DNA from: Hericium rajendrae | Lineage: Eukaryota; Basidiomycota; Agaricomycetes; Russulales; Hericiaceae | Assembly (NCBI GenBank): GCA_033439255.1 | Contig: CM065878.1 | Span: forward strand, 558,001 to 622,000 | Direction: 5' to 3' | Length of the DNA stretch: 64,000 bases | Shown: piece after piece, positions 5,055-61,565 of the stretch | How positions within the stretch are numbered: the first letter of the stretch is position 1 | Layout of the letters: each line of letters starts with the position of its first letter | Translations under genes and position numbers: made by a program | The notes under the pieces: model-generated | What the model was told of the DNA's origin: nothing | Databases searched by the model: none | What the model saw: the letters and a program-made list of their open reading frames with translations, nothing else

Positions 5055-5087
5055 CATCTGAAAAATCTAATGTTTACATAGCAAAAG

Positions 5088-5290
5088 GTCAAGCTATGGA
5101 TCCTATAGGTATGCTATAGAGTCTATGGCTCTGACTTGCCAAGCTATGTAGAGCTATGAGAGTTATCATAGCCTTCATAGCAGACAGTATAAAACACATA
5201 GCCTATATAGCTAGTACTGTCAAACACATAGAGCTATCATACTTGCTAAGGGGAGCTATGGCTCCTATCAAGACTATGCTGACTATGCTT
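5088..5290. repeat. AGCTATG-rich subterminal array of J, GC-arm end
   Basis: Irregular, palindrome-prone repeats of TAGCTAT, AGCTATGG, CATAGCC and CTATGTAG fill about 200 bp just inside the left end. The same vocabulary, but not the same exact order, is found under both ends of all seven elements of this family, so it may be a binding region for the mobilising protein. Confidence 0.75.
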
Positions 5291-5399
5291 AGCCAGATAG
5301 ACATCAAAGGTGTGAAGTCAAAATTATTAAATTAAAATGTTACTTATACTACAAACTGGTCAGGTACATTACAGAAGGAACTAACTACTCTGGATGGAC

Positions 5400-6334
5400 C
5401 TCACACATACCCAACAGCACACACCGATGACGTAGTGCCCGTCGTCGCAGCTGTTCATGCAGCATGTGCATGCGTGTGGGTGCTGGCACAATCCTCCGGT
5501 ACCGGTGTGCACAGCCTCGTGTGCGCAGACATGGCTGCCCATGCACGTATGGGCCCTTATCGGCATGTGCAGCCACCATGCGTACACCGTTACCGGTGCG
5601 CATGCTCTCACACATGCAGATGCAACTGCCCACACACGATGGGCTGGCGCAGTCATCCGCTGGCCTGCGTGGCCCCATGCGAGCAGATGGGGACCGTGCG
5701 CGTGTGCGATGGCGTGGCAGTCACCGGCCTGCATAGCCTCGCATTGGCAGATGAGGCTGTGCATGCATACACATGCTGGCGCGGTCGTCTGTGGCCGTAC
5801 GCAGGGTGGAGCCATGCATGACAGCCTGCACGCTGGCAGGGCCGCACATGACTGCCTGTCCCATGTGTGCATGGCGCAGTCATCCGCGTGCCTGGTGGTT
5901 GCACTGGCACGGTCATCCACGGCTGCGAGAAGGCGAGGACGTGGCCGCGGGCGACTGCCCATGCGTTGGCAATGCCGGGCGGGGCGGTGCTCGCCATACA
6001 TGCATGCATGCGCATACGCGCCGGCGCGGTAGTCTGCGATCGTGCAAGGGCGGGGCCATGCGTGACAACCTGCATGCTGGTGGGGCCGTGCAAGGCTGCC
6101 CACACCGTGTGTGTGCTGGTGGGGCAGTCTGCGGCCGCTGAGATTGCCCGCAGCCATGAGTAGCCCTGTGTGTGCAGTCCGCAGTTGCCCATGCAGCATG
6201 CGCATGCATGGGTGCACTGGTGGTTGTCAGCGGCCATGTGCGGACTTACCAGTGCATGGCCCATGCATGTCAACAGGGCCACATGCACGCGTCTCCGGGC
6301 ATGCATGCGCATGCTGACAGTGGGGGCGAAAGCG
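5400..6334. repeat. GC-rich degenerate arm of J
   Basis: This block is rich in GCATGCATGCGC, CACATGC and GCGCAGTC words. Several long open frames exist on both strands at once (for example 5381-6217 - and 5457-6032 +), which is the expected result of high GC and few TA-rich stops rather than evidence of coding. The translations are low-complexity Cys/His/Arg/Met-rich with no domain. Confidence 0.65.
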
Positions 6335-6341
6335 AGTGGAG

Positions 6342-6425
6342 GAGGCATCCCTGTAACCCATTTACAACCTGTACTAGTAAGGACAGGAGGGAGGGTTCCA
6401 ACTTTCACCAATAATATAGGGAGAG
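6342..6425 (+). repeat. Left terminal inverted repeat of K
   Basis: It matches the inverted right end of K (12890-12973) and both ends of F over about 65-70 bp at roughly three-quarters identity, with a near-invariant GGAGGGAGGGTTCCAA core. Confidence 0.7.
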
Positions 6426-6479
6426 TTCAGAACCCAATCTCGAACAAAATAATCATTCTAAATATAGAAACTTTTACAG

Positions 6480-7677
6480 TCCGGGCCGCTTACCGGGCCG
6501 TACAGTACTCACTGCCGCGCGCTTAGTGCATCTCCTCGAGCGGCTGCACTCGGCACCATCCACCGACCTGCACGCTTCCCGCCTCGGCTACGCACTCACC
6601 ACCTCCCGCCCTGCCTGATCTCGGCTATGCAAGCGCTCGGCCACGTGCCCGCCTGCCCCTGCCTCCTGCCACTGCCACTGCCTGCTCCCCAGCACCGTTG
6701 CTGCGATGCACGTCGTCAGCACCGTAGGTGCTGCTGCCATCGTTGTTGCTGTGTGGCTACGCCGGGGCACGTGCACCGTTGCTGCGTGGAGTGCGTGTCG
6801 TTGGGGCATTCTGCATGGACTTTGGGCATTGCGGGCATGTGACATGTGATGCGAAAGGGCCATGGGCATGCGCGCCGAGTGCCACACACGTCCTGCCCTG
6901 GGTCGCGCCCACCTACTGCTCCCGCCGTCGTTGTTGCTACGTTGCTGGTGAGTGCTATCGTGCCACCATTGGACCACGTGCCGTTGCTGCGCATTTCGGG
7001 CCGTTGTTGGCATTCCGTGTGGGCGCTCGGCATCACGCACGGGTGCTGGCATTGCGCGCGGGTGCTAGGGCCCTAGCACGAGTGTGCGGGGGGCATGTGC
7101 GGTTGCCACATGCTGCGTGCCGTTGCGGGCATGCAGCGTGCTCTGCGCAGATGCTCAGGATACGGCGTGCATGTCGAACGATGCGCGGAGGGTGCTGGGG
7201 GTGCTGGGGCTGCACGAGGGTGATGCTTGATGGGTGGGGAAGTGGGCACATGCCATGGGCGCACAAGTCATGGGTGCAGGGTGCCAATAGATGTGTGCGC
7301 AGCTATCGAATACGCACCTTCGCCATTGGCTGCAGTGCGCGCACATCCCGGAGCATGTTCCACATGCTTGTGAGCATGTCCAGCGCGTGTGAAAGTGGGT
7401 GGAGGGCTGCTGGGAGCCATGGAACGTGTGGTCGAGGGGCATGGAGCGCGTCAGACGCACGGTTGGGGTGCGAATAAGGGAGGACGAGTGGATGGCGAGA
7501 CGATACGCGCGAAGAGCACAGAAGTGCGTGTATGCGCAAAGAGAGAGGCAAGGGAGCGTGAGTGCAGCTAGAATGCACGTACGTGCTGTTGGCGTGGCTC
7601 AGAATTCGCCGAACCTCAGTGGCTGAAGCCCGAGAAGCCTGACGCTCGAGGAGAGGTGCACCTCTGCACAAGTTCTG
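6480..7677. repeat. GC-rich left arm of K (shared with the right arm of F)
   Basis: This arm is repeated in inverted orientation at 24104-25440 with only scattered substitutions. Words such as GGGCATGTGAC, GTTGCTGCG and GGGTGCTGG recur. Open frames are present in nearly every phase on both strands, so none is called as a gene. The homology to F stops at GCCAGAACTTG (7666-7676 here), exactly where the hAT element begins in F. Confidence 0.65.
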
Positions 7678-8698
7678 GCCCGTATTGTTCCTGGATAGAG
7701 CCACGAATATAAACATAGAATAGTATACATCGTGTGATGAGATTTCTGAACTATCTAGAGGATCCTTTCAGCTACAATGAGTGACTTATTGTAACCCTAC
7801 AGTAACCCTAGCTCGTATTTCGTGTAGAAAAAACTTCATTATGGGTGATCTTGCCTATCTAGATATCCTTGATGACTTTACATGGTGTCAAAAATGTGAA
7901 TCCGAAGTTTGAATTTTTTTGGACGTGATTACAGAGCTTGAGGCCTGAGATACGCACAAAATACAGCTCATGGAGCCGAAAAGTTATGTATCTCGCAAGA
8001 TCCTAATGATCGAGACCACCGAAAATTACTGTAAAGTCTAGGTAGACACTTTATATATGTCACAATGCATAAAGATAAGCCGATACACGATGAGAGCAAG
8101 ATAGACTGCACAATCACAGCTCAAATCTTGTGCCCGGCGTGCCCGAGGCCTCGATTCGAGCTTGACGCGTTTAGTCTTTCACGCACTTTAGACTTTCTTA
8201 TCCATGGTTCAGAATTTTCTCAGCTCCATCGCATTCTATTCCTACCAATCTTCGTATTTGATTGTATTCAGACTAGCCACATCTACCGTATTATTCGTAG
8301 GGTTTAATTGAATTTATTTGTCCTTGAACGACCTCTTCGACGACTTGGGACGAGGCATGCAGACTAATTCGGCAATCGCCGAACCGTGTCGCAAGCTTGA
8401 CGACTGTTTTTCTTCCTCCCTCCCTCAAGCGGGGCGCAAATACGAGGCTCAATAGTCTCCATAATTCGTAAGTCTTTTTTTTCTTTTCTTTCCCTGTGTA
8501 TGCGTTTGCTAATGAGATTCCGTTTCCTTAGCCTTAAATTGCGATGACGTGGCACTTGAGATGCACCGCAATGCTGCCGCCCCTCTACCCACCTCCATCC
8601 CGCTTCCAAACGTGCGTGCGATGCCTCCCCGTGCCATGAAGGGGTACTCGCCAGCGCACAAGACCCGGCGCTCGCAATCGCATGCCGTCAAGCTCACC
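7678..8698. other. Interior of K, no gene recognised
   Basis: About 1 kb of lower-GC sequence that is absent from F. It has an 80-codon open frame (8065-8307 +) with no recognisable domain. A GTAAGT at 8469 with TTGCTAATGAG and a TTAG acceptor by 8531 could be a short intron. I see no coding support beyond that. Confidence 0.4.
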
Positions 8699-9584
8699 TA
8701 CATCTGAGAAATTTACTACTGGTATATAAGGCTATGTAGGCTATATAGCTTTCCTAGGTCCATAGCTGTCCTCTTTTCTACATAGCAGTCTCATAGCAGT
8801 CAAGTAATCTATTCATAGCTATCATAGCTTGCCATAGCTACCATAGCATAGGGTCTAAGCTATATAGCTGCTATAGCATAGAGTATAAGATATCATAGCT
8901 ACTGTAGCTATTATAGTATAAAGTAGCTATAGAAGCTATATCAACTATATACTATATCATCATTGTAATATTATATCTAGCTAATAACATTTCTATTCAT
9001 TCTATATCACTTCTGTCAAATATGTTGTTCTAGCATATTAAAACATTTTCTTACTCATTAATTTTATTCATCTTAAATCACAAATATCAAAAGTTTAAAA
9101 ATTATAATGTTTTTATTAGAATTTCATTACAAAACATTACTAAACTACCAAAACTACTAGATAACTACAAAAGATAACAAACTTACAATAACTACAAAAA
9201 GCGAAAATATAAACAAGAAAAGAAGACATTAGTATTGAGATAACAAAGATAATACATAGAAGCTTACCTCAAACTAACAAAAAGCGAAAACCTACAAGAT
9301 AGTTTGTAAGACATTAGTATTAAGATATAACACTACATACCTCGTAACCATACACAAAAGCACTGTAACAAGTAACGAAGACATTAGTATAAGACATAGA
9401 AGAGGAAGAATAAGAGCTTACCTGAAGAGATAGCAGTGACGAGCAAGCAAGCAATAGCGACGAGCGAATAAGCGACGACGAACGAGCAGGCATCGACGAC
9501 GAACGAACAAAGGACGACGACGAAGCGTCGACGTGGCAAGAGGTGGTGGGGGTTAAGAGCAAGAGGTAACGCGCGTCGCGCGAG

Positions 9585-9593
9585 CCTTATATA
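9585..9593 (-). promoter_or_regulatory. TATA box of the AT-arm transcript in C
   Basis: On the minus strand this reads TATATAAGGCTCGCGCGACG. The same block (TATATAAGG or TTTATAATG followed by GC.CG(C/A)CGA.GCGCG) occurs once in every family member, always facing the AT-rich arm. It is followed on the minus strand by several GTAAG...TACTAAT...AG short-intron patterns. Confidence 0.55.
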
Positions 9594-9821
9594 CGATTCC
9601 CGGGCGAAGCCGAGAATCGTGGCTGCCGGGCGCTGCCGAGCGTAGCGTCAGAGGCTGGATCCCAGACGTGACAATTTTACACACGATATGCATGAACACA
9701 CCGTATAGTAGATATATATTGTTCTGATCTGATGTATTTATATGAGAAATCGTCAGCTTCTGGCTTTTTCTCTGAATTTCTGCGGTTTGATTAGATTTGT
9801 TGTGCTTCAAACCGTTGAACT

Positions 9822-9850
9822 CGCGTTCGGTGGCTGACGCACCGAACGCG
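9822..9850. other. Stem-loop 1 of C
   Basis: Perfect inverted repeat CGCGTTCGGTG / CACCGAACGCG with a 7-nt loop GCTGACG. Equivalent stems with a GCTGAAG or GCTGTAAG loop occur in D, A, Z, B and E. Confidence 0.7.
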
Positions 9851-10002
9851 CTTCGACTTTGACAGTTCGTCTCTGTCTTACTCTCTATGTCGTCCCTCCT
9901 CACTATTCTCTCCGTTCCCTCGCCACCCTCTCCGTTATTCCTTCGGAAGTTGCCAAATTCGAACGTCGGGGGAGGGCTTAGTATTATGCAGAGGGCCACG
10001 AG

Positions 10003-10076
10003 GTAAGTAAAACACTAACTTTCGTTGTTTCTGCACTAAGGCAGAGAGTATCGCTCGTTTTTCGAGCGATACTCTC
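10003..10076 (+). other. Short intron abutting stem-loop 2 of C
   Basis: AGAGGGCCACGAG is followed by GTAAGTAAAAC, a branch-like GCACTAAG and the acceptor GCAG at 10041-10044, a 42-nt intron. The acceptor is the first base of a perfect hairpin GAGAGTATCGCTCG-TTTTT-CGAGCGATACTCTC (10044-10076). The intron-hairpin junction is conserved in all members, although the codon phase across it is not, so translation is not supported. Confidence 0.6.
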
Positions 10077-10084
10077 GTTTCCCC

Positions 10085-11400
10085 CCTCTTTCCTCAACCT
10101 CTCGTGCACCCCCGGTCTCCTCATCGCTCCTACCGCCCCTTCCGCGCTCCCTCCCCACCACATTCGCCCACGCGCAGCTGCCTCGTCCCACACGCGACAC
10201 CCAACACCCCACGACACCCGCGTGCGACCTCAACGACGCACAAGCCCTCGGCTCTCCCTTTCGCCCACAGGAGCACGGGCCATGCACGCGCGTCGTTGCA
10301 CGCCGTCTGCGCGCTGTCAACGACGTGTGTGCACGGGCCACCTCATCGCCCGTGCCCTCCACGTCTCCTCCCGCACCTCTCCCTTCCCTTCGCCTCCCGC
10401 CGCCGCCTCTCCCGCATCGACTCCCCTCCCCGACATCGCCGCCATTCCCACAGGGCTGGCGTGCCGTCTCAAACGACCGCGATTGCGTGCACCAGCGCAC
10501 GCACACCACCGGACAACGCGTACGCGAGCCCGCCGCCCTGCGCACGGGCTCCACCTCTCCGCATGGCCCCGCCGTTCCACGTATGGCACTGCCGCCTGGC
10601 GCACGAGTTAGGCCACGCTGTGCGCGGCCTCCTCGTCTCTCGCAGGGGCTGATGCGTTGCGCGCGATCCCGCTGTGGTCCGTGCGCACGGCCAGCGGATG
10701 GCCACAGCCGCGCGCGGATGCCGGCACGCGCGATGTGCGCGCGACCGGAAGTGGGAACACCAGCGCACCACGACACGGGACGAGCACGCATGCGTGCTGC
10801 AGCTCGACGTCTCGCATGCAGGCCTCGCACCTGGGGCCCCCCGCCGCCCTCCCGCGCTCGGCCATGCGCGCCTCGCGCGCAGGCTTGCCGCATCGTGCAT
10901 GGGCCTGCGGCAGCGCAACAACGCCCCTCGCGCGCCTTGTGCCTCCGGCGCGCAAGCCTACTGCGTCGCGCACGGGTCTGGCGTGTCGCGCACGCCTCCG
11001 CGCCTCGTCCGGGCCTCCTGCGCCTCGCGCGCGCACGCCCCTCAAGCGCATCGTGCACGGGCCCAGCGCCCAGCATCGTCTACTGCACGCCGCCTGCGCC
11101 TCAAGCACATCCGCGGCGCCCCACACACGCCTCCCGCGCATCTCGCGCCTGTCCCTCGCGCCTCACGCATGGGCCCGCCACCCACCGCCTCTTACCCACG
11201 CCCCCGTACCTCATGCATGGCCCCCGCACCTTGCGCGTCTCCCGCCCCTCGTGCACGGGCCCGCCGCGGTCCAGTGCCCCATGCATGGGCCCGCCGCAAC
11301 CCGACGACTTGCGCACGGCCCCTATCCCCGCGTCTCCCGTGCGCAGGCCCGCCGCGCCTCATGCATGCATGTTTTGTCATGCCCCGCCATGGCACATGGC
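10085..11400. repeat. GC-rich degenerate arm of C
   Basis: Words like CGCACGGGCC, GCCTCGCGC and CCATGCATGGGC recur at roughly 25-35 bp intervals. At least six overlapping long frames exist on both strands (up to 365 codons), all Arg/Pro/His/Ala-rich. With such base composition this is not evidence of a gene. Confidence 0.6.
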
Positions 11401-11774
11401 CCTGTCTGCAGACTGCATGTAATTAGGCACCTGTACTTGTAGTATATTTGATTGTAGTAGTAATCTCATTGAATATGATTAATTTTGACTTGTAATTTTT
11501 CATACCTAGTTGACTTGACATAGTACTAATAGTACTCATAGTAGTCATAGCTCACCTTAGTAAGTATGATAGTGTATGATAGTGCTATATATTTCAAACT
11601 GCTGGCTATGGAAGCTATGATAACACCATATAACTGATACTAGTAGCTATGGAGGCTATGAAAGCTCTCATAGCTCTACATAGCTAGATAAGCAAACTAT
11701 ATAGCTCTGATAGCTCAGTCATAGCACTCATAATATAACCTGCAGCTATATAGAATTCAGTTTTCTCAGATGTA

Positions 11775-12720
11775 GGGGTGCGCGTGTCCCAGCCCTCTGT
11801 CAGCCCCGCGCCCTGCATCCCAGCCCCAAGTCCCTGCGTGTCTCCCAGCCCCACACGCCATCTCCCAGCCCTGCGCGCCATCTCCAGTCTCCTGTGTGCC
11901 ATTTCCAGTCCCGCGCGCCGTCCTCAGCCCCACGCGCCATTTCCAGTCCCGCGCGTGCTGTCTCCAGTCCCACACCTCCCAGCCCCACGCCCGTGCGCCC
12001 CAGTACCGTGGCGCCGCATCCAAGCCCCCCACGTCCTAGCCCTGAGCCCCTGCATGCTGTCACCTGTCCCCCGCGCCATCTCCAGCCTCGCGCACGCTGT
12101 CTCCAGCTCTCTGCACGCCATCTCCAGCTCCCCGCACGCTGTCTCCAGTCCCGCGCATGCTATCTCCAGTCCTCCGCACCTGTCTCCATCCTCGCGTGCA
12201 CCATCCCAGCACTGTGCCCACGCTCTCCACCCTACGTCCAGCCCCGTTCCCACGCTTGCGGTCCCAGCGCTGGGCCCACGCACTCCAATCGCAAGCCCGT
12301 GCCCATGCACCAGCCCTAAGCCCGTGCTTCAGCGCCATCCCTGCGCATCCCAGCTGTGAGCCCGCTCCACCGCGGCACCCGTGCGTGAATTCCACCCGCG
12401 CACTCCACGTGCGGGAGCCATCGGCGATGCGCGGCGGACGTGCAGCGAGCGTAGGGATGGCGCGTGCACGTGTGCCGACCGCGGCATGCATGCTCTGCAG
12501 CGGGCATGCAGCGAACAGCGCGCGCAACCTGCGTGCAGTGCGTGCGTAGCCGAGGGGCGAGAGTGGGTGCGGCAGGTGGTAGGTGCTGGCGAGTGAGAGG
12601 AAAAGTGTGCGTGGAAGCGCCGGCGAGTGCACGTGAAGCACCGGCGAGGGATGGAAAGTGCCGGCGAGCGGATGGAAAGCACCGGTGAGCGTGAGAGAAA
12701 GCGCCAGCGAGCGCGAGGGA
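11775..12720. repeat. GC-rich right arm of K with CTGTCTCCAGTCC repeats
   Basis: From about 11880 to 12190 a unit resembling CGCRYGCTGTCTCCAGYYCC repeats every 24-27 bp with drift. The distal part (12317-12720) is repeated inverted in F at 19930-20372. Long frames in several phases again reflect composition. Confidence 0.6.
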
Positions 12721-12889
12721 AAGCGCCGGCGAGCCATAGGTAGTATGTAATAGTGGCCGAGATCCTTAAGATCTCGGCCGATATGTTTTTTTAAGAATAT
12801 AACATGTTTTTTGGAATATTTTATTCTATGTAAAACATATTCTATGCAAAACATATGAAGTTCCAAACATTGCATTTAGCCCGAAAATA

Positions 12890-12973
12890 CTGCTTATAGT
12901 GTTACTGGTACATTTGGAACCCTCCCTCCTATTACTACTGGTATAGGTTGCAACTGATCTACAGGGTCTGGTG
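12890..12973 (-). repeat. Right terminal inverted repeat of K
   Basis: Read on the minus strand it begins CACCAGACCCTGTAGATC and continues with the shared GGAGGGAGGGTTCCAA core. It is the inverted counterpart of 6342-6425. Just inside it, CCGAGATC.TTAAGATCTCGG at about 12753-12780 forms a small palindrome that is also kept in F. Confidence 0.7.
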
Positions 12974-13064
12974 AGTGGAGGGTAGTGGAACCGGGTGCGG
13001 GGGCTTGCGCATGGGTGTTGCAGTAGAGAGCAGCGGCGGGGCACATCATATGACCTTTAGTCAT

Positions 13065-13088
13065 GTCTCATTGCCACAGCAATGAGAC
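13065..13088. other. Palindrome GTCTCATTGC-CACA-GCAATGAGAC in J
   Basis: A perfect 10-bp stem with a 4-nt loop. Similar stems built on GTTGCYAYRGYAAC are found in the GC arms of D (18596-18624, 18944-18977), E (58657-58688, 59011-59036) and in the relic at 61298-61317. Confidence 0.6.
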
Positions 13089-13185
13089 TCGACATCAGCG
13101 TCATTGACGGTGCTGTCGAGGGAGTGGTATGGGATGGGCTCGTGGGCGTGGCCGTGGAGTGTCGAAGGTGAGGGCAGAAGAAATA

Positions 13186-13258
13186 CGAGTATCGTTCGCA
13201 CGAACGATACTCGTCTGATTAGTATGAAGACAAAAAAAAGAAAATATACTGTACTTAC
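13186..13258 (-). other. Stem-loop 2 and adjoining short intron of J
   Basis: CGAGTATCGTTCG-CA-CGAACGATACTCG at 13186-13213 is a perfect 13-bp stem. On the minus strand it is immediately preceded by a 44-nt intron pattern, GTAAGTAC at 13258 downward, TACTAAT, AG at 13215. This is the same junction as in C, A, Z and D although the stem sequence differs (ATCGTTCG instead of ATCGCTCG). Confidence 0.6.
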
Positions 13259-13405
13259 CTGGAGACCTCAACGCCCCTCCCTGCCCTCCTGAACGTCGCT
13301 TGACGACCTGCGCTGCGTGACAAAGGTGGTAAAAAGAGAGAGGAGGGGAAAGGAAGTGAGAGGGAGGAGGAGATGTGACTGCGAAGAAACACAGAGTCAT
13401 GCATT

Positions 13406-13426
13406 GAGTGCAGCCACAGAGCACTC
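13406..13426. other. Stem-loop 1 equivalent of J
   Basis: GAGTGC-AGCCACAGA-GCACTC lies at the position where other members have the CGTTCGGTG / CACCGAACG stem. The sequence is different but the position and stem-loop are kept. Confidence 0.4.
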
Positions 13427-13661
13427 GACTCGCATGTTTGGCGTTTTCGACTGCAACAAATCAAATAAAAACATTTAAATTGCCAAAAAAATGCACAAAG
13501 TATATTTCATTTGTTTGAGCACAACAGATGATCCATAAATGTATCTATTCTACTCTAGTCCCTTGGGCAGTCAAGCCAACTTAGTGAGATCTAATGGCTA
13601 GCCTCGGCCGCGGCATCCGGCAGCCACATTTCGGGCTCCACCAGACAAACCCGGATTCGGG

Positions 13662-13669
13662 TTTATAAT
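13662..13669 (+). promoter_or_regulatory. TATA-like box of J
   Basis: TTTATAATGCTCGCACGATG on the + strand corresponds to TATATAAGGCTCGCGCGACG of the other members and faces the AT-rich arm. Confidence 0.5.
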
Positions 13670-13689
13670 GCTCGCACGATGCGCGTTCT

Positions 13690-13943
13690 CTCTTATTTCT
13701 CAACCACTACCATCTCCTCTCCTCCTCCTTCCTTCTTCCTCTCTCTGTTGTTTCTCTCAAACTTTTTCATCTTCGGTAAGTATCTATCTATTGTTTATAA
13801 GTATTAATTGATTGATGTTTTGATTTTGTAGACTTAAATTTTGCTTTTTATCTTCTTTAAGGTAAGTCTTCTCTTATGTTTGTTGTAACTTATGCTGATG
13901 ATGTGGCATCTTTATCAGACTATTTTTTGACTTTCTCATGCTT
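13690..13943 (+). ncRNA. Predicted spliced transcript of J (AT arm)
   Basis: About 25 bp after the TATA box a pyrimidine-rich leader begins. A first intron fits 13776-13831 (GTAAGT to TTTGTAG), then a 30-nt exon at 13832-13861 starting ACTTAAATTTTGCTTTTT, a second intron at 13862-13918 (GTAAGT to TATCAG), then an exon from 13919 ending before GTAAGCC at 13944. Element E has a 30-nt exon at the matching position starting ACTTTATATTTTCGC. There is no sustained ORF. The exon model is inferred from splice signals only. Confidence 0.4.
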
Positions 13944-14164
13944 GGTAAGCCTTATGTATTGTTCAATTCAATAGTTTAGTATAGCATCTGTATTTGTATA
14001 AGATAAAAATATATTGTTTTTGAAATTTTACTGTTTTGCTTGTTTGATCTATAATTAGCCTACTGAGACTATAAAAGTTTTAAATTTCTATTAAATATTA
14101 GGCCTAAGTCACATATAAAGTATAGGCTAGATAGCAAACCTATTCGGCTGGATATGATATGATA

Positions 14165-14385
14165 ATAAACATATGGAATATAACTGACATAGCTTGTATA
14201 GCTATCATAGCTATGCTCTATGCTCTGATAGCTATCATAGCTATCATAGCAAAGCATAGCTATCCTATTTGACTACATAGCTTATCATAGATTGGCTCTT
14301 AGCTATGGAGGCCCTATGCATAAAAGAGGATTGCTATGGACCTATGAGATCTATGTAAGCCATCTAGAGCAACATAGCACTGGTA
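14165..14385. repeat. AGCTATG-rich subterminal array of J, AT-arm end
   Basis: Dense TAGCTATCATAGCTATG words, ending about 10 bp before the terminal CAGATG. It is the counterpart of the array at 5088-5290. Confidence 0.75.
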
Positions 14386-14405
14386 CATTTTTCAGATGAG
14401 GGCAC

Positions 14406-14828
14406 TGTCAAGACTCGGTCATAGACAGCAGAGAACCACCCAAGTCACCAGTGATGATGGGAGCGAGAGAGCAGAGAGCGACTAGCAGCGCAGTGACCTG
14501 TATTGGAGGTACAGTACAGTACAGACAAAATGGACAATCTAGGGAAATAGGTGAGTGACTGGGAGCCTATAAGTACTGGAGCAACAATGGGAAAAGAACA
14601 ATGGGCACCATTATGGGTTGAACAATAGAGTGAGAACAATGGTGGCCAAATGGAGAACAATGGGAGGGAGAACAATAGGATGTCCCAAAGGGGAACAAGG
14701 GCATGGGTGAAGGATAGCCCCAGGTCATGTGAGGAAGTGAACATGTGATGGGGCTGCTGGAACACATGACTGACATGATGCCTTGATGGCAGAGAAGAAG
14801 GCAGAGAGAAATGGAGCAATCCATGACA
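14406..14828 (-). repeat. 3' LTR of gypsy 2
   Basis: 423 bp, TGTCAAGACT...ATGACA on the + strand. On the minus strand a purine tract (TTAGAGAGGGGATGA, 14829-14843) lies directly upstream, as expected for a 3' LTR. Differences from the other LTR at 32510 are mainly CG against TG or CA. Confidence 0.88.
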
Positions 14829-14843
14829 TCATCCCCTCTCTAA

Positions 14844-17118
14844 GATGCACTTTCACCTGGAGTGCATGATGAGCATGGACGGGGTCAAGGTAGATGAGTC
14901 CACAAAGATTGGGAGCCTTGAGTGCATGTGGATGGTGGGTGTAGAAGTCGGTGATTGCACCATGGGCATTGGAAAGGGAGGTACGTGAAAGCCACTGATT
15001 TTCTTAATCAGGGTAGCCTGCCCATTTGACGAGGTATTCAATGCCACATTTGTTCCGGGTGAGATGAGCATTGAGGACAGACTCAACTTCATATTCTTCC
15101 TTGCCCTCCACAAGGTCAGGTGGTGGTGCAGGGAAGTTGGGACCATGAGCATCGGTTTCCTTGTAAGGGGACAACAGGGATGTGTGGAACACTGGGTGGA
15201 TACGCCAGGTGGGCAGCAGCTTCAGTTGATAAGAGACTGGGCCCAGGACGTCAGTGATTTCGAAAGGTCCCAGGTGTCGATCAGCAAGCTTAGCTTTGGG
15301 TCGTGTGGTCTTGATGTTCTTGCCATCAAGCCAGACCTTGTCACCAACCTGGAAGTGGATGGTGTCGTGCATATTGTCCTGGTTGTTGCACTTCATGAGG
15401 TCAGCAGCTGTTTGAAGGCTGGCCTGGACCTCAGTGCAAAGCTGTTTGAGATGGCAGAAGCGATCCTTGACGGCGGGTGTAGACGATGTGGGGTTGACAG
15501 TGGGGATGGCAGTGGGAATATAGCCGAGGAGCATTTCAAATGGAGCTTGGTTAGTGGTACTGTGGATATGGTGGTTGTGCGAGAACTCAGCGTAAGGGAG
15601 CCATTGGACCCAATCATCCTGACGGTAGTTGCAGAAGGTGTGAAGAAACTGCTCGAGTTTTTGATTGATGCGTTCTGACTTGCCGTCGGTCTGTGGATGA
15701 TAGGCGATGCTGAGGGAAGACTTGATACCAAGTTTGTCAAAGACACCATGCATGACTTTGCCTGCATACTGTGGGCCATGGTCAGAGATGAGGCATTCCC
15801 AGAGGCCATAGTTCTGATAAATCCTGTCAAAAAGGATGTTGACTGTGCCATCACTGGTAATGGTCTCATCTTGAAAAGGATGGGTAGGGATGGCATTGGG
15901 AATTGTTTCAACATAAGGGCAGTGATTTTGAACCTCGGTGGCCTGGCAGGTAGCACAGCCATCAACATAATCACAAACGAAGACAGACATACTAGGCCAC
16001 CAGTAGTTGCGACTGAGGAGCTCGTAGGTCTTGTAGCATCCTGGGTGACCAGCCATGGGTGTGTCATGATGCAGCTTGATGATGTCCCAATGAAGGTCCT
16101 TGTCAGCAGGGATGTAGACCTTGCCACGAAAGAGGATGAGGCCATCCTCGTAGTTCCATTCTTGGAGGTTCTTGACGAGGGAGCGAGGACCATTGTTCAG
16201 GATCACATCAAGGGCTTGAATGACCTCAATGTACTTGGTCTTGGCATTGCGAATATGTTGGTGAAGATCAGCATTGCCAATGGACTTGACAGCAGCTGAA
16301 CGTGTAGCATGGATCTGGAAGTACTTGGGGTCAAGGAGGACACTATCTGAGTTGTCATCATCCACCCCCTCTCTATGGTCAGGTTGTCTTGACATGACAT
16401 CTGGCCGGTGATGAATACCAGGCTTGTGGAGCAAGGTGAAGTCGAAACGGGTGAGGAAGAGAGCCCAGTGAGCCTGATGACGACTCAGCTTTTGGGCGGA
16501 CTTGAAAGGCTCAGTATTCCAGGTTCTTATGGTTGGTCCAGATCTCCACAGTATGGGAAGAACCTTCCAAGTAGTGGCGTCAGGCTTTGAGGGCATGGAT
16601 GATGGCCAGGAGTTCCTTGTCATAGATGTCATAGTTGCATTCAGGGGTGGTGAAGGCCTTGGAGATGTAAGCAACAGGGTGCCATTGCTCATCCTCTCCA
16701 CGCTGGGATAGGATACCTCCTGTGGCATAGTCTGAGGCATCGACCTCAACCAGGTAGGGTTTGGATGGGTCAGGCATGATAAGGACTGGGGATGAGGTGA
16801 ACACAGCTTTAAGAGCCTCAAAGGCATGTTGACATTCAGCAGACCAGGCCCAAGGATGGTCTTTCTTGGTAAGGTCGAACATGGGGTGGGCAACTTTGGA
16901 GAAGTCCTGGATGAAACGCCAATAGAAATTGCCAAAGCCAACAAAGGACTGGACGTCCTTAATGTTATGGGGGGCAGGCCACTCAGCAATGCCTGCAACC
17001 TTGACGGGGTCCATGGCGAGTGTGTTATGGGAGACAATGAGACCAAGGAACTCAACTGAGGGCTGCTCAAACGAGCACTTCTCCGGCTTGATGAAGAGGT
17101 CATTGTCCTGGAGGTGTT
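14844..17118 (-). pseudogene. Gypsy 2 pol, 3' half: RT thumb, RNase H, integrase, chromodomain
   Basis: From 17118 downward: RT thumb (DNDLFIKPEKCSFEQPSVEF), RNase H (YLVEVDASDYATGGILSQRG), a frame change near 16590, then RNase H end (HKPGIHHRPDVMSRQPD), integrase zinc region (HHDTPMAGHPGCYKTYE; CATCQATEV), integrase core and GPY/F tail (HLGPFEITDVLGPVSYQL), then a partial chromodomain (EYEVESVLNAHL..CGIEYLVKWAGYPD). The integrase first Asp region is missing: sequence jumps from PNAIPTHPFQDETITSDG to LFDRIYQNYGLWECLISDHG, an internal deletion of roughly 40 residues. Frameshifts and this deletion make it inactive. The long open frame over 16600-17181 in another phase is a shadow. Confidence 0.85.
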
Positions 17119-18263
17119 CATCTGAGAAAAACACCAGAGGTATATTGCACTATATAGTCTACATAGTTCTAATAGGGCCATAGCAGTCCCCTTTTCTTCA
17201 TAGCCATCTCATAGTAGCAAGGTAATCTACATAGGGCTATATAGCTACCATAGGATAAGGCAGTAGCTATGGTAGCTATTATAGCTATCATAGTATAAGA
17301 TAGCTATAAGAGCTATGTTAGCTATGTGATATATCCTCACTATCATATTATATCTAGTTATTCAGACTTCTATCTACCCTATGTCATCTCTGTTAAATAT
17401 GTCACTCAGAAGTACTATCAAAATATCAAAAGATATAAATCCAATATAAACCTGACTTATTATATTTAAAGCTTTCAAAAGATTGAAAATTTAAAAGCAT
17501 TATATTACAAACAATATCTCATTGCAATACATTTATACAAGACTACAAATTACTATAAAACTATAATAGATAGCAACTTATAATCAAGTCAAGCTAGATA
17601 AGATAAGATAAGATAAGAAAAAGCGAAAACATGATCTAAACATAGGTTAATAGATTAGTACAAGACAAAAGAGATACATAAGAACATAAGACATACCAAA
17701 GAAAAGAAAAAGCGAAAATATAAAGTCTACAAAGAACATTAGGGTTAGTGGACAAGAACACAACATAACAACCTACCGAACATAAGAAGGTTAGAGCAGA
17801 AGAAGAGCGAATGACGAAAGACAGGAGATGGTAGTGGTAGGAAAGAGAGAGAGACAGTGCATCGCACAGGCCTTATATAGATGTGGCAAGCAGTGCACCA
17901 AATGTGGCTGCAGAGACCGGGCCAGGTGGTGCTGAGCATTCGTGTCAGAGGCTAAGTGTCAGATTTTGCTAAGTTCACTTCATTGCCCAGTAGCTAATAG
18001 TAGATTAGTTGAAACTCATACGATTCAATGTTGTGATGAATCGTGGATGTAATCTTTTTTTCAGAATTTAAAGTGTTTTATTTGATTTACTAGACTCGAA
18101 ATGTTCGAACTCGCACGCGTTCGGTAGCTGAAGCACCGAAGGCGCGTCAAAGTTCGACTCTCATACCACCACCCTCCTCTCCTCTTGTCCCTCCGCTGTT
18201 TGTCTACTCATTGACTCATCACATCAAATGCAGGAGGGTCTCGATAGGGCAAAGAGGGGTCAA

Positions 18264-18345
18264 GGTAAGTAAAATTAAACTCTTTATTAGCATTCTTTGT
18301 ACTAATAAAGAGAGTATTGCCCATTTGAGAACGAGCGATACTCTC
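18264..18345 (+). other. Short intron and stem-loop 2 of D
   Basis: GTAAGTAAAATT at 18264, TACTAAT, acceptor AG at 18309-18310 (47 nt), then GAGAGTATTGCCC...ACGAGCGATACTCTC (18310-18345). One arm has decayed by C-to-T changes compared with E, so the stem is imperfect. Confidence 0.55.
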
Positions 18346-18595
18346 TCATTCTTCCACTTCCATGACACCTTGCTCGACTTCCCCTCCCCCGTCGCCATCT
18401 TTCCGCCATGTTGCCTTCTTTCTGCCACCCCGTCAGCGCAATGCCCACTTCTCAACCACATCGCTGGCAGCCCCGACCCACTGCACATCACCTACCCCAT
18501 GCCTATGCCCACACCCACGTCCACGAGCCTCCTGCCTCCCACCTCCTGCCTCCCGCACTCCGTGCATTGACGACGGCATCTGCGTCCACGTCGTC

Positions 18596-18624
18596 GTGCC
18601 TTGTTGCCATGGCAACGGGGCATG
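18596..18624. other. Palindrome GCCTTGTTGCC-ATGGCAACGGGGC in D
   Basis: An imperfect stem on the GTTGCCATGGCAAC core, conserved in E at 59011-59036. A second, GTCGCACCTCGTTGC / GTGACGAGGTGCGAC, is at 18944-18977 and in E at 58657-58688. Confidence 0.5.
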
Positions 18625-23600: not shown

Positions 23601-23889
23601 TGATGCATCCAAGATATGCTTATCTCTGACGTGTAGTGTGTATTGTGATTCAGCAACCTCTGTTGCAGTCGAACGTGCCTTTAGTCGGGGCCGTTTACTT
23701 TTATCTCATATTAGGAACCGTCTCTCTGCGCAAACAACTCGAGCTCTACTTTGTCTTGGTGATTGGAGTCTCCTTGGACTTATCAGGGACTCCGATGTAC
23801 TCAAGGTAGCAGCCCTTGGTGATGTGCTGGATGGTGATCCAGCAGAAGAGTTTGTGATGGAAGAGGGATGGGATGCTATCAAAAAGTAG
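20670..23889 (+). pseudogene. hAT transposase with BED zinc finger, about 10 exons, two frameshifts
   Basis: Start chosen at 20670 (MMPPTKNPMTSKKRK), which has a basic nuclear-localisation stretch; an in-frame Met at 20517 is less likely. Introns of 48-95 nt with GTAAG/GTACG donors are visible at 20965-21012, 21376-21429, 21614-21667, 21806-21900, 21970-22020, 22413-22466 and about 22733-22871. After an acidic N-terminus comes a BED finger (CSAKGCKQIVRR...HKHVRRC), then the RNase H-like core (NFAMDAWSSPNHRAFIAL; VTCDNASANDVMIQEL; TRCFTHIVNLVAK; NVSTRWNSTYDML), and the C-terminal dimerisation block (ATSVAVERAFSRGRLLLSHIRN). Frame is lost at about 22347 and regained at about 22495 without a plausible intron, so it is probably inactive. 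It would excise and reinsert hAT elements in the nucleus. Confidence 0.8.
22741..22820 (+). repeat. Minisatellite inside a hAT intron
   Basis: Four degenerate copies of a roughly 20-bp unit GTGTGGGYGCTCGTATTGTC lie between the donor after CGCGACGTGTTGAAT and the acceptor CCTTAG before ATCTTGAAAG. Confidence 0.6.
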
Positions 23890-27977: not shown

Positions 27978-27986
27978 CCTTATATA
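27978..27986 (-). promoter_or_regulatory. TATA box of A
   Basis: Minus strand TATATAAGGCTCGCGCGACG, facing the AT-rich arm, identical in context to C, Z and B. Confidence 0.5.
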
Positions 27987-28445: not shown

Positions 28446-28449
28446 GACT

Positions 28450-39819: not shown

Positions 39820-39915
39820 GCCCGCCGACGTTGCCAGCACACCGACGTTGCCAGCCAGCTGATGTCGGCAATCCGCCAATGTCGGCAATCCGCCAACGTC
39901 GCCAGCCAGCCTCGC
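39820..39915 (+). repeat. Short tandem repeat CCGACGTYGCCAGC / CGCCAATGTCGGCAATC in the Z arm
   Basis: The units CACACCGACGTTGCCAGC and GTCGGCAATCCGCCAATGTC repeat two to four times in tandem within the GC arm. Confidence 0.6.
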
Positions 39916-44695: not shown

Positions 44696-44714
44696 ACAAG
44701 CGGGAAAGGATGTT

Positions 44715-53956: not shown

Positions 53957-55791
53957 CATCAGAAAAATCAGTTTTCTACATAGCTTCTAGCCAATGATAT
54001 GGCTCCTATGATAGTTCTATGCACTCTATGTATTTTGGCAGCACAGCCTTATAGCTCTATAAGACCTATCATAGGTTCTATAGCTGTTGGTGGTGGGTAT
54101 ATAGAGCTATGTAGTTTTGAGTGACAGCTATGCTAGCTATATAACATTATAGGGTTGCTATCAATGCTATGATTCCTATCATACCATACCTAGAACCCCA
54201 AAATATACTAAGGCAAGAGCACCTTAAGCCAATTGTCTAGGTTGAAAATATATTTAAATTATGGGCTCAGGAGTAATAAACAACAGCTAATTCTACTATA
54301 TTAAAAGTAAATAAGTAATTAGGGCCAATGCGGGCATGCATCCACGGCGCAGGAGGCCGTCGTGGGCCCGGGGCCCGTACACGAGAGTGTGTGCACTGGC
54401 CGATGCACGTGACACGAGGCGCACACGCACGAGGTGCGGCAGGCCTGCGCGCGCGAGACGGGAGGGCCGTGCACGAGGCACAACGGGGCATGCACGAGGC
54501 GCTGGGTGGCAGTGGGCCTGTGCGCGATGCGGCAGACGTGCACGCAGGAGGTGCGGGGCCCGTACGCCAGGCAGCGGGCCTGTACGCGAGGCGCGGGGCC
54601 CGTGCGCGAGATTTTGGGCCACCACGGGCTCGTGTGCGATGCGTCATGCCTGCGTGCGGGAGACGCAAGGCGCGCAGGGCGCGTGGGCGAAGCGTCGAGG
54701 GCGGCGGGCCCGTGCGTGAAGCACTGGGTTGCCACGGGCTCGTGCGTGAGGCGGCAGCCTGCACGCGAGGCGCAGGGTCTGTGCGCGAGACGCCGAGGGC
54801 GTGCGTGAGGCATCGAGGGCGTGCGCGTGAGGCGTCGAGGGTGGCAGGTCCATGCGCGAAGCGTCGGGTGGCCACGGGCCCGTGCGCGAGGCACTAGACT
54901 GCCGCGGGTTCGTGCGTGACGCGGTAACCTGCACGCAGAAAGCGCGAGGCGCGTGGAGGGGCGTGGGCGAGGGTCGAGGGCGGCGGGGCCATGCACGAGG
55001 CACAGGGCCGGGCACGAAACGTCGGGCTACTGCGAGCCCATGCGCAATGCGGCAGGCGTGCACACGAGGTGCGATGGCGTAGACGTCACGAGGACGGACA
55101 GGGCCCCGCGCGACGTGCATGCGCTGGCATGCCCATCCCAGGTCGCGGACGACCGTGCGCACTCCGCTGATCGTGGTCGTTGGAGGCGACGCGCTGGGCA
55201 CTAGCGACGTGGCGGCGACGCGACGTGGCGGCGAGGCGGCATGGCGGCAAGGTCGGCAGAGGGCAGGGTGTTGCGGGATAGGCAGCAGTCGGAGGCGAGA
55301 GGGGATGAGGGTGCGGGAGGATGAAAGAAGTCAAGAGTATCGCTCGTCGAACGAGCGATACTCTCTAGATTAGTACAAATAGATGAATTGAGACTTTTTT
55401 TACTTACCTTTGAGGCCCTCGGCATCTGACTATCCTCCTCCGGTGTTCGATCCGATGGGAGCGAGAAGAGGGATGGCGAACGGGCGAGACAGGGGAGTGA
55501 GGGTGGTAGGGACAAGACTGACTTCGATGCGCGTTCGGTGCTTACAGCCACCGAACGAGCGAAGCTACATTGTTCGAGCTTTAACAAACCAAGTAAAATC
55601 GTAACAATTCAGAGAAAAAGAATACTATGATAGATCATACAGTAAACCAGAATTAATGAGGATTCTATGTATCTACTGCACCGTGAATTGCTGAGCAGCA
55701 GCATCAACATAATAAAGTCTAGCGCCCAGTCTCTGACGCGACGCTCGGCAAGCGCCCGGCAACCACAAATCCCGGCTCCATCCGGGATTCG

Positions 55792-55800
55792 TATATAAGG
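55792..55800 (+). promoter_or_regulatory. TATA box of B
   Basis: TATATAAGGCTCGCGCGACG on the + strand, preceded by CCCGGCTCC, followed about 50 bp on by a palindrome GTCGACACCTTCGTCGAC. Confidence 0.55.
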
Positions 55801-55821
55801 CTCGCGCGACGCGCGTTGCCT

Positions 55822-56150
55822 CTTGCTCTTTAACTCCCACTGTCTCTTGCCACGTCGACACCTTCGTCGACGTGCTTTGCTTGCTCGTCATCATTCTTTA
55901 CTTTGCTCGTTGTCTTTAAGGTAACCTTTCATTGTTTTTTCTTATTGCTCATACTAATACTAATATCTTTTAAGTTGTCTTTCAGATTTCGCTTTTTGTT
56001 ACTTTGGTAAGTTTTCATGTGTTATCTTTATCTTTCAAGACTAATGTTTTTTTTTTACCTTTGATTTCTTATCTTATCTTATCTTATCTTGTACTACTTA
56101 TCTTATCTTATCTTATTTCTTACTTTCTTACTTTCTTACTTATGTTTTTG
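55822..56150 (+). ncRNA. Predicted spliced transcript of B (AT arm)
   Basis: The leader TTGCTCTTTAACTCCC is followed by a GTCGAC...GTCGAC stem. Intron 1 fits 55921-55985 (GTAACC, TACTAATAC, TTTCAG), exon 2 is 55986-56006 (ATTTCGCTTTTTGTTACTTTG), then GTAAGT opens the next intron at 56007. The TTTCGCTTTTT core recurs in the matching exon of C, D, E, Z and A. There is no coding potential. The model is inferred from splice signals. Confidence 0.4.
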
Positions 56151-56614
56151 CTTTTTAATTAGTAGTAGTTTTCATGATATCAATATACTCTTAATGCATT
56201 GAAATAGTTTATACTTGTGTGATCATATGTTACTAATTCTGATATGACTGTAAAAAATATTCATAGTTTCAACAGATTTTATTGCTTTAATATGATATTG
56301 AATATAGAATATGTAAGACAATTATTAAATGTAAGATATATGAGACACATACTGAATGTAGAATATATAAGACACATAAGCCTTATAGCTTTAATAGACA
56401 CTTATAGCTTTCATAGCTAGCTAGACTATCATAGCTACATAGTTAGCTATTATAGCTATCATAGCACTTCATAGCATCACCCTTTAGCTTCATAGCACTA
56501 CATAGCATTCCCCTTTAGCTATGCTGGCTATAGAGAAAAGGGCAGTGCTATGGAACTATGAAATCTATATAGACTTTATAGAGCTATGTACCACTTACAC
56601 ATTTATTTGATGCA

Positions 56615-57822: not shown

Positions 57823-59340
57823 CATCTGAGAAAAGAGATTTTTATATAGCAGCAAGTCCTGTTATAGGCCCTATCAGTGAGCTATGGGGACTATGAAGTT
57901 GGACTGTTCAGCTATGTAGAGCTATGGGGCCTATAATAGCCTCCATAGCATGAAGTGTTAAATACATAGAGGATCATAGCCTCCATAGCTAGGTGTGTCA
58001 TATACATAGGATTATGATACTTGTTAAGAGAAACTATGACTACTATGACTACTATATTCACTGTTGTCAGCTGGCTAAGCACTCAAGACATTAAAGCAAA
58101 TTTTTTCTTATATTTGGAATACACTACCACAGACAAGGGTACAACCATTAACTACACTCGAGTGGGTAAGCACGCGCTGTCGGGCGTGCGTGAGCAGGCA
58201 TGCTTGGTGCGAGCATGCGCGCCAGCGTGGACATGTGCGGCTGCATGCTCACATGAGAGTGCATACACACACGTCCTGGGGGAATACACGCGCAGTCGGC
58301 ACCTCGGTCTTCGCATGCTCACTGGGCCGAGCACAGTCACACACTCCGGAGAGGCTGTCGAGGCATGTGTGCACATCGAGACCTCGTGCGGGTTTACGCA
58401 CCGTGCGCGGTCGTGCCCGGGCCTGTATAGACATGCATGGCCACGCGCCCGCATGCAGGAGTGCGTCCGTGTGCTGGCGAGGCCATTCGCACGCGCACGG
58501 CCACGTGTCATGTCCACGAGCACATTGCCGACGGCGTGGGGCGTGTTGGTGCATCCATACCATGCGGGAGGTCACATGCGAGCTGAGGGCACATGGCGTT
58601 GTCGTGGGCGTGCGAGGCACGCAGTGGGTGCGGCAGGCCGGGCAAGGGACCTAAAGTCGCACCTTGTCGCCGTAGCAACAAGGTGCGATGGTGGTGATGG
58701 CGGCACGGGTGTCGAGGAGATGGCATGACAGGCGCGGGATGTAGGCACGGGTTGTCGGGGCCTCACGCAGGCTTGCATGCCGTGCGTTGCCATGCATGAT
58801 CGCATGCGGGAGTGCGTGCACACACTGGCTGGCCTGTCCGTGGAAGTGCATGGCCGGGCGCGCTTAGCCACGTGTCATGGCCGTAGTCATGTTGTCGATG
58901 GTGGGGAGGTGGTGATGCGTGGGGTGGGTAAGTCCGATGAACCCGCACGGACCTGTTGAGGACGTGCGGGGGTTGTTGAGGGGACGCGAGGGCATGGGCG
59001 AATGACATCACGCCCCGTTGCCACGGCAACAAGGCACGACGACGTGGACGCGGACGCCGTCGTCGATGCACGGAGCGCGGGAGGCGGGAGGCGGGAGGCA
59101 GGAGGCTCGTGGACGTGGGTGTGGACATAGGCATGGGGTAGGTGATGCGCAGTGGGTCGGGGCTGCTGGCGATGTGGTTGAGAAGCAAGCATTGCGCTGA
59201 CGGGGCAGCGGAAAGAAGGCAACATGGTGGAAAGATGGCAACGGAGGAGGGGAAGTCGAGCAAGGCGTCGCGGAAGTGGAAGAACGAGAGAGTATCGCTC
59301 GTTCTCGAACGGGCGATACTCTCTCTATTAGTACGAAGAA

Positions 59341-59803
59341 TGTTGAAATCGGTTGATGACGCTAGTCTCGATGACAACAATTATGGAAAGATCTGGAATG
59401 ATCTGGACTTTGGTTATTGCAGAATCACATGGAACATTTACATAGCCTTACTGTACAGGTTAGTAATACGCTCTGACATACACTTACTGATACCTTAGTG
59501 AGCTGACTGATGCTGTTCCCATGTGATGAGCAATCCATTATGCTATGCTGTACGATTACTGTACAATTTCTGATTGGTAGATATGCAGAGCCCTCAATAC
59601 TATATAAGGGCTCCCTCATTCGCTCAGATACCTCAGTCTTTCACATCACAGACTGAGGTGAGCATATCTTGCATTACTTATGAGTTTCATCTTTACTGAC
59701 TCTACTTGTAGTATAGACTAACGTCTCTCTAAGGTACTGCAATATAGTCTTTCACATCACAGACTGAGTATAGACTAACGTCTCTCTAAGTCATGTTTCT
59801 TCA
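59341..59803 (+). repeat. Solo copia-type LTR in E, TSD AAGAA
   Basis: 463 bp, TGTTGAAATCGG...TTTCTTCA, flanked by AAGAA at 59336-59340 and 59804-59808. Same family as 42374-42836. It splits the short intron next to stem-loop 2 of E, so that intron is no longer short in this copy. Confidence 0.87.
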
Positions 59804-60227
59804 AAGAATGCTAATAAAGAGTTTAATTTTACTTACCTTGACCCCTCTTTGCCCTATCGAGACCCTCCTGCATTTGATGTGACGAGTCAATGAGTAGACA
59901 AACGGCAGAGGGACAAGAGGAGAGGAGGGTGGTGGTATGAGAGTCGAACTTCGACGCGCCTTCGGTGCTTCAGCTACCGAACGCATGCAAGTTCGAACGT
60001 TTCGAGTCTAGTAAATCAAGTAAAACACTTTAAATTCTGAAAAAAAGATTACATCCACGATTCATCACAACATCGAATCATATGAGGTGAGTATCTAACT
60101 AATCTACTATTAGCTACTGGGCAATGAAGTGAACTTAGCAAAATCTGGCACTTAGCCTCTGACACGAATGCTCGGCACCGCCCGGCCCAGTCTCCACAGC
60201 CACATTTGGCACTCCGCTCGCCACGTC

Positions 60228-60236
60228 TATATAAGG
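60228..60236 (+). promoter_or_regulatory. TATA box of E
   Basis: TATATAAGGCCTGCACGACG, followed by CGCTGTCTCTCTC leader. Confidence 0.5.
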
Positions 60237-60257
60237 CCTGCACGACGCGCTGTCTCT

Positions 60258-60520
60258 CTCTCTTTCCTACCACTACCATCTCCCGTCTTTCGTCATTTGC
60301 TCTTCTTCTGCTCTAACCTTCTTATGTTCGGTAGGTTGTTATGTTGTGTTCTTGTCCACTAACCCTAATGTTCTTTGTAGACTTTATATTTTCGCTTTTT
60401 CTTTTCTTTGGTATGTCTTATGTTCTTATGTATCTCTTTTGTCTTGTACTAATCTATTAACCTATGTTTAGATCATGTTTTCGCTTTTTCTTATCTTATC
60501 TTATCTTATCTAGCTTGACT
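60258..60520 (+). ncRNA. Predicted spliced transcript of E (AT arm)
   Basis: Leader, intron 1 at 60331-60380 (GTAGGT, CTAACCCTAATG, TTGTAG), a 30-nt exon at 60381-60410 starting ACTTTATATTTTCGC, intron 2 at 60411-60471 (GTATGT, TACTAATC, TTTAG), and an exon starting ATCATGTTTTCGCTTTTTC that runs into the (TTATC)n tract. The micro-exon length and ACTT start match J although the introns differ. Confidence 0.42.
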
Positions 60521-61565
60521 TGATTATAAGTTGCTATCTATTATAGTTTTATAGTAATTTGTAGTCTTGTATAAAATGTATTGCAATGAGATATTGTTTG
60601 TAATATAATGCTTTTAAATTTTCAATCTTTTGAAAGCTTTAAATATAATAAGTCAGGTTTATATTGGATTTATATCTTTTGATATTTTGATAGTACTTCT
60701 GAGTGACATATTTAACAGAGATGACATAGGGTAGATAGAAGTCTGAATAACTAGATATAATATGATAGTGAGGATATATCACATAGCTAACATAGCTCTT
60801 ATAGCTATCTTATACTATGATAGCTATAATAGCTACCATAGCTACTGCCTTATCCTATGGTAGCTATATAGCCCTATGTAGATTACCTTGCTACTATGAG
60901 ATGGCTATGAAGAAAAGGGGACTGCTATGGCCTTATTAGAACTATGTAGACTATATAGTGCAATATACCTCTGGTGTTTTTTTCAGATGCTGTGATGCGA
61001 TACACCAGCTTGTTGCTCACGGTGAATGCACTCAGGCCAGCAAGTGGCATCAGTGATTGGCCGACATGCTGGATACCGCAGGAAGCAGAGACAGGCACAT
61101 GAGGGCTTTTAAGGCCATGCGTTGACATGCACCGCATGCGTTGATGCATGGGATGTGAATGGCAGGCATTTGTGCATGCATGCACTAGTGTACTGTGTCA
61201 GCTGTTGCAGGGCACGTGGAGGGAGGCAGGAACACAAGTGCCATGTCGAAGCTAGCGTGTACAGTCCCACGTGGGTGGTGAACAGATGCAGATCAACCTC
61301 GTTGCTATAGCAGTGAGACTCGACCTTTGTTGCTGCCGGCCTTTCATATGGTATGGCTGGGCATACTCCTGGGGTGGTGTAGAACCTCGGGTTTGAGAAC
61401 ATGTGTTGCGGGCAATGGATGGGGTCAATGGAGTCACTGACATGCCAGCGAGGGGCATGTGGGCGTAGGCGGGATTGTTGAAGGCACGGGTGACAAGTAG
61501 CACAGCTGGTGCACATGAGATGAGAGTGGAGGATCGAGAACTGCTGTAGAAGAACAAGAAATGAG

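Follow-up and report, generated by a model that had tools for sequence, protein, structure and literature searches.

Arrays of short motifs lie beneath the ends of Spm transposons. According to the sections of Kojima (2025, PMC12730594) that treat these groups, fungal EnSpm elements have CACTA-type ends (5'-CAC..GTG) and 3-bp target duplications, Plavaka is grouped with EnSpm in the CMCT clade, PlavakaB has CATCA..TGATG termini with duplications of 2 or 3 bp, and the KDZ elements Kyakuja and Zisupton duplicate 7 and 8 bp, respectively. Non-autonomous DNA elements of Marasmius oreades are mostly <1 kb in the part of PMC8290104 that describes them. Here we analysed 64,000 nucleotides of Hericium rajendrae (GCA_033439255.1, contig CM065878.1, positions 558,001 to 622,000 of the forward strand; below, the window), which hold seven large non-coding elements, J, C, D, A, Z, B and E, and we followed these elements through the genome. 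Because of their ends, duplication length, plan and a shared CTAA-hairpin piece, they are most likely non-autonomous relatives of PlavakaB, a class known in outline.

Ends, target duplications and copies

Re-read from the window, the seven elements stand where the original prediction had placed them and have a common body plan, in which an AT-rich arm leads into a GC-rich arm between CATCWGA ends over a length of ~2.6-3.1 kb. The 2-bp target duplications that it had reported are exact in six window elements, and of 18 distinct insertions in which both ends could be read, 17 are flanked by an exact duplication, its sequence varying from site to site; in eight rows of this comparison, A and B among them, ends were set via alignment to A and not by searching for a duplication. 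Both ends read CATCWGA in 13 of the 18 insertions, with one variant end in the remaining five. Two empty sites concur, showing the target TA (L019 against L013) and the target AA (L026 against L034) in single copy.

The same boundaries recur when the whole genome (46.8 Mb, 19 contigs) is searched for them, as had been suggested. The end pattern gave 773 matches versus 5 for the reversed-pattern control; these include ends matched twice, and 82 distinct array-type ends are present among the 100 matches listed. With A as query, at least 69 matching pieces were found (40 of 664 candidates scored), and seven close copies of A, counting A and B, are clearly clustered within the initial 0.62 Mb of contig 1 (C1:114281-614612). 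The proposal of a non-autonomous family moved in trans is supported by the many copies, the exact duplications, the two empty sites and the lack of coding.

Subterminal AGCTATG arrays were likewise borne out: counting both strands, the window has 62 occurrences of the motif, 58 of them within the 350-bp element ends. In A the left array (27155-27504, + strand) and the right array (29470-29819, + strand) contain zero CpG.

A itself occupies 27155-29819 (+ strand, 2665 bp, duplication AT), and B, which is 97% identical to it, occupies 53957-56612 (- strand, duplication CA), with one end decayed. Later insertions are present in D, J and E. Element J (5055-14398, - strand, net 2711 bp, duplication AG) has its AT-rich arm at the high-coordinate end and is interrupted at 6342-12974 by an element with terminal inverted repeats (TIR), inside which element C is nested (8701-11772, + strand, 3072 bp, duplication TA). 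Another TIR element (19704-25441) interrupts D (17119-25560, + strand, net 2704 bp, duplication TT), and E (57823-60989, - strand, net 2705 bp, duplication CT) carries a 463-bp insert at ~59341-59803 with a second copy at 42374-42836. Z (37946-40715, + strand) has lost its left CATCTGA, and its homology with other copies extends to ~37946. In the window comparison, identity between different element kinds is mostly 66-77% where they are alignable. An Rfam scan of the window at gathering scores returned no family.

Window-type elements often insert into other transposons, and further ones lie in or beside Plavaka genes. One Z-type insertion was read in eight copies of a multi-copy carrier with apparently ~280-bp inverted ends (L009-L015, L018, L019), of which L019 is a related copy empty of the insertion. 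In L049 (273-292) and L050 (398-436), the end of a window-type element is separated from a Transposase_21 domain by 19 and 38 bp, respectively.

CpG split of the body and the inner cassette

The window elements are non-coding, and no transposase is encoded in them, as had been claimed. Open frames in the CpG-dense GC-rich arm of A (28409-29506, + strand) are not coding. Variable sites among eight A-type copies fall on the three codon positions as 57/61/59, without periodicity, and 6 of 7 indels in these arms are not multiples of three. Among the 132 Plavaka-domain matches in the genome, zero (PF18759 transposase) lie inside the window.

The body is split with regard to CpG. In twelve window-type elements, the left 350 bp contain 2 CpG in total versus 114 predicted from composition, and the right 350 bp contain 11 versus 142, while the CpG ratio of the GC-rich arm is 0.78-1.28 versus 0.47 in the rest of the window. 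Copies of A vary in this arm at 45% of CpG positions versus 1% of other positions, and CpG transitions make up 166 of the 177 variable sites in eight copies. Six copies of the Z family, all from one insertion, show a weaker form of this pattern (98 of 120). Such variation fits CG methylation followed by deamination. The combination of nearly CpG-free ends with a CpG-dense arm varying mostly by CpG transitions is new here. In the part of Jursch et al. (2013, PMC3680223) that bears on this, and that serves as an analogy only, some Tc1/mariner elements transposed more upon CpG methylation, and no CpG was needed in their ends.

Within the body lies a conserved non-coding cassette, which is also new here. 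In an alignment of 11 elements, where A/B and D/E are close pairs, a TTATA site, GT(A/G)AGTA and CTAA are kept in 11/11, and palindrome 2 can be recognised in every one, though in D it is decayed; the splice-type sites and palindromes described at first are thus conserved. In A (+ strand), the TATA-like site of a presumed internal transcription unit is at 27980-27989, palindrome 1 (TTCGGTGGCTGTAAGCACCGAA; 166 genome matches, 0 in the control) at 28223-28244, a putative 43-nt intron (GTAAGT...TACTAATCTAG) at 28371-28413, and palindrome 2, overlying the putative 3' splice site and showing compensatory changes among copies, at 28411-28447. Palindrome 2 is also found in C (10044-10076, +), J (13183-13216, -), Z (39299-39338, +), B (55334-55364, -) and E (59286-59325, -).

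Genome-wide, the pattern of CTAA plus palindrome 2 gave 328 matches versus 0 for its reversed control. Stem pairs were counted in the 76 distinct sequences among the 100 matches listed, which are related and do not represent 76 independent events, and the pattern admitted only purine or pyrimidine at scored stem sites. Pair one is A-T in 64/76 and G-C in 12/76, and pair two is T-A in 71/76 and C-G in 5/76, both with zero mismatches; pair three is G-C in 63/76 and A-T in 3/76, with a one-sided change in 10/76. Since one-sided changes occur on both strands, consistent with CpG decay, the counts fit an RNA role and a DNA role of the palindrome equally. Of 46 palindrome matches located on C1 and in the initial 2.7 Mb of C2, 30 are as far from a window-type end as expected, one of these pairings being false (C2:992956), and 8 have a hairpin sequence that belongs to the sister family described below (six of the eight sequences fetched). 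Measured between families as the frequency of the commonest base, averaged over 100 columns at a time, conservation is 0.52-0.71 in the cassette, 0.57-0.82 in the left 350 bp, 0.32-0.67 in the AT-rich arm and 0.20-0.55 in the GC-rich arm. The intron-like stretch and the hairpin look as if kept by selection.

Probable kinship with Plavaka and competing explanations

The original prediction that no described superfamily fits did not stand, given the ends and 2-3 bp duplications of PlavakaB in the relevant sections of PMC12730594, and its hint at CACTA/EnSpm was a good one because Plavaka belongs to the same CMCT clade there. Membership in KDZ was ruled out, as the duplication here is 2 bp. So was membership in CACTA/EnSpm proper, because the ends here are CATCWGA in place of 5'-CAC..GTG and the duplication is 2 bp in place of 3 bp. 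The parts of PMC12730594 that deal with Plavaka make no mention of the arrays or the inner cassette, and the Plavaka literature covered, nonautonomous elements included, gave no account of this class (neither Repbase nor the supplementary files of PMC12730594 formed part of it).

Coding relatives help to tie the window elements to Plavaka. A complete Plavaka-coding element at C12:966055-975712 has CATCAGG ends, dense TCAGA/TCTGA arrays under both ends and no CpG in either 350-bp end. A second Plavaka lineage (L036/L037), in which one end was read, ends with CATCTGGAAAAAGTG and has PF18759 (L036, E 1e-85) together with a sub-threshold Ulp1-protease match. A sister non-coding family (L040-L046) with CATCTGGAAAA ends and CTACAG-rich right ends matches this coding end at its left end (45 bp, 82%, E 2e-6), and in L041 a second patch of 52 bp is collinear with it. 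The family also has a palindrome in common with the L036/L037 element (E 1.6e-11), one that in L036/L038 is located close to reading-frame starts, and it shares the CTAA-hairpin piece with the window elements (39-55 bp, E down to 5.7e-11). The search for coding relatives gave an element of the same plan with CATCAGG ends and, for the sister family, a short match to a Plavaka end, but among the ends compared no coding element with AGCTATG arrays.

Two inverted Plavaka copies lie at C12:966055-994600 (L032, L033, L035) and are 99.6% alike over the compared part. A tandem hairpin array with ~81-bp spacing (CGAGAACGAGCC..GGCTCGTTCTCG) is found inside the coding element (L035 3617-4052, L032 1-458).

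Several candidates for a coding partner were tried. Two ends, at L048 and C7:2504228, have a Plavaka domain 2.1 kb away on their inner side, and for two further ends the distance is 3.05-3.07 kb, about one element length. Transposase_21 (PF02992) has 31 matches in the genome, most with open frames, of which 9 lie no more than 9 kb from an element end or a palindrome on an incomplete list of such marks. The marks put the domain outside the element in 7 of the 9, and in the other two (C2:4510991, C3:1631855) the sequence places it 19 and 38 bp beyond the element end. L031 (J-type, 6.4 kb), D and J were rejected as coding ancestors, their extra length being a related TIR element inserted at differing positions.

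A number of observations weigh against kinship with PlavakaB. Published ends are CATCA, whereas many ends here are CATCT, with T at position 5. The comparison of 195 distinct ends (typed by coordinate, part of the 773 matches) with 80 Plavaka loci, merged by hand from the 132 matches, did not reveal any Plavaka-coding element that combines CATCWGARAAA ends with AGCTATG arrays. A Plavaka locus is within 9 kb on the inner side of 8/195 ends and on the outer side of 8/195, with ~3 expected each; the equal counts indicate clustering of ends near Plavaka loci, not inclusion. The candidate L048 was discarded, as a Plavaka element (ending ..CTCCTGATG) is inserted there at position 165 of a C-type element. 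Variant ends occur as CATCTCA in L013, L019, L020 and L034 and as CATCAAA in B, and a duplication is missing in L005, the one such case among the 18 insertions, and in 2 of 3 insertions of the sister CATCTGG family. The left ends of that family have 8-14 CpG per 350 bp, against the general CpG-free rule, and a scan of Plavaka-coding loci did not reveal palindrome 2. Finally, the coding element at C12:966055-975712 is without a duplication, because its flanks are unlike (CC versus TA). The second copy of that element may account for them: the flanks CC and TA of the two inverted copies look exchanged, which suggests a recombinational inversion, and the predicted left flank of the second copy, the fourth flank, was absent from the fetched piece L039.

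With these points counted, we put a probability of about 0.8 on the elements being non-autonomous cut-and-paste transposons of PlavakaB type, in the CMCT clade and related to CACTA/EnSpm, that work as follows. A Plavaka transposase supplied from elsewhere would bind AGCTATG-type repeats under both ends, cleave at CATCWGA and insert the element through a 2-bp staggered cut, leaving the 2-bp duplication. The arrays, having almost no CpG, could not be marked by CG methylation and would be kept free of it, while the CpG-dense body would be methylated, as it appears to be because copies differ there mostly by CpG transitions. An inner unit of RNA polymerase II type, with the TATA-like site, two palindromes and short intron, would be transcribed and spliced. 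The most likely role of this unit is either to give rise to a spliced transcript without coding or to provide a transposon protein with operator palindromes. A more tentative extension is that the cassette is either a regulatory operator or a selfish gene for a non-coding RNA, spread among Plavaka families with different ends, in a body of two methylation zones, where CpG-free transposase-binding ends stay unmethylated and the CpG-dense arm draws CG methylation to compact the body and help the ends meet; we regard this as possible but doubtful.

Other explanations have to be weighed with it. If the elements were simple internal-deletion derivatives of autonomous Plavaka, the intron and palindromes would be a functionless leftover promoter and 5' exon. 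In L036/L038, related-kind palindromes lie between oppositely directed protease-like and transposase frames and directly upstream of a third frame, and on this arrangement palindromes near gene starts would be normal for such elements. However, palindrome 2, unseen in coding loci, has 328 genome matches with compensatory changes, the cassette is more uniform than the GC-rich arm and compares with the AT-rich arm and left end as given above, and the same piece occurs in families with different ends. As no AGCTATG-ended coding element was found among the ends compared and the intron-hairpin piece is shared by families with different ends, the elements do not descend by simple deletion from any coding element found here, and we consider leftover origin in general an unlikely account, though one to be kept in mind. 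Less probable still is an unrelated, perhaps undescribed transposase superfamily whose PlavakaB-like ends arose by CMCT-style convergence. The missing AGCTATG-array partner among the 195 ends would suit it, as would the 31 mostly open Transposase_21 matches, but all nine of those domains near marks fall outside elements, the sister family links the same hairpin piece to the end of a Plavaka-coding element, and PlavakaB ends as published in PMC12730594, in its sections on termini, match. That the GC-rich arm codes a disordered Arg/Pro-rich protein via a spliced transcript is very improbable. A, Z and C each have one Arg/Pro-rich, low-complexity frame of 366-460 codons there, and an ATG immediately precedes the putative intron in A, B, Z and C; yet codon periodicity is lacking, indels break the frame, the frame of A is missing from B, and D, E, J and L034 have no ATG at that place.

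Neighbouring features and comparison with known systems

The second element kind of the window (19704-25441 and 6342-12974; also L031 ~1240-4860) has ~60-bp inverted ends and 7-bp flank repeats, GGCTATT in D and GTGGAG or AGTGGAG in J. It is inserted at differing positions in three of the elements studied, and the open frames listed for it include no long one. Minus-strand retrotransposon frames flank D at 15004-17208 (integrase zinc-binding and Tf2-1 SH3 domains) and 25534-26979 (reverse transcriptase), as if D had split a gypsy-type element. Named relatives of a window retrotransposon protein are basidiomycete, and the nearest of them is in Dentipellis fragilis, with 63% identity over 48% of the query and 67% over 41%. 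A 0.42-kb repeat is present in three copies of 93-95% identity in both orientations (14406-14828, 29824-30234, 32510-32932), and two long palindromes lie outside the elements (36096-36141, 61748-61792). PIF1 helicase and Helitron_like_N domains share a strand at 40980-42047 and 45611-46543 and are likely a Helitron remnant.

Plavaka elements are abundant but understudied in mushroom genomes. The elements described here form a frequent, recognisable non-autonomous Plavaka class with intact ends, which should be useful for tests of motif binding by the transposase. They raise the question whether transposons position CpG so that their own ends escape methylation while the body is silenced. Moreover, the hairpin, which covaries and sits at the putative splice site, hints that an operator or non-coding RNA is preserved for the family's own spread.

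Compared with the systems closest to them, the window elements resemble those of Marasmius oreades, as far as PMC8290104 describes these, in being recognised by ends and duplications without coding, but differ in their ~2.6-3.1 kb length and conserved inner unit. With Sleeping Beauty-type elements, on the relevant part of PMC3680223, they may be compared for the CpG split only, in that a methylated compact body raised transposition and end CpG was dispensable; superfamily and host are different. With CACTA/EnSpm they share CA..TG ends, short duplications and subterminal short-motif arrays, whereas they end in CATCWGA, not CACTA, and duplicate 2 bp. The likeness to PlavakaB is in CATCWG termini, 2-bp duplications and a host rich in Plavaka genes; the difference is that the window elements have no transposase and carry AGCTATG arrays, an intron-hairpin cassette and many CATCT ends.

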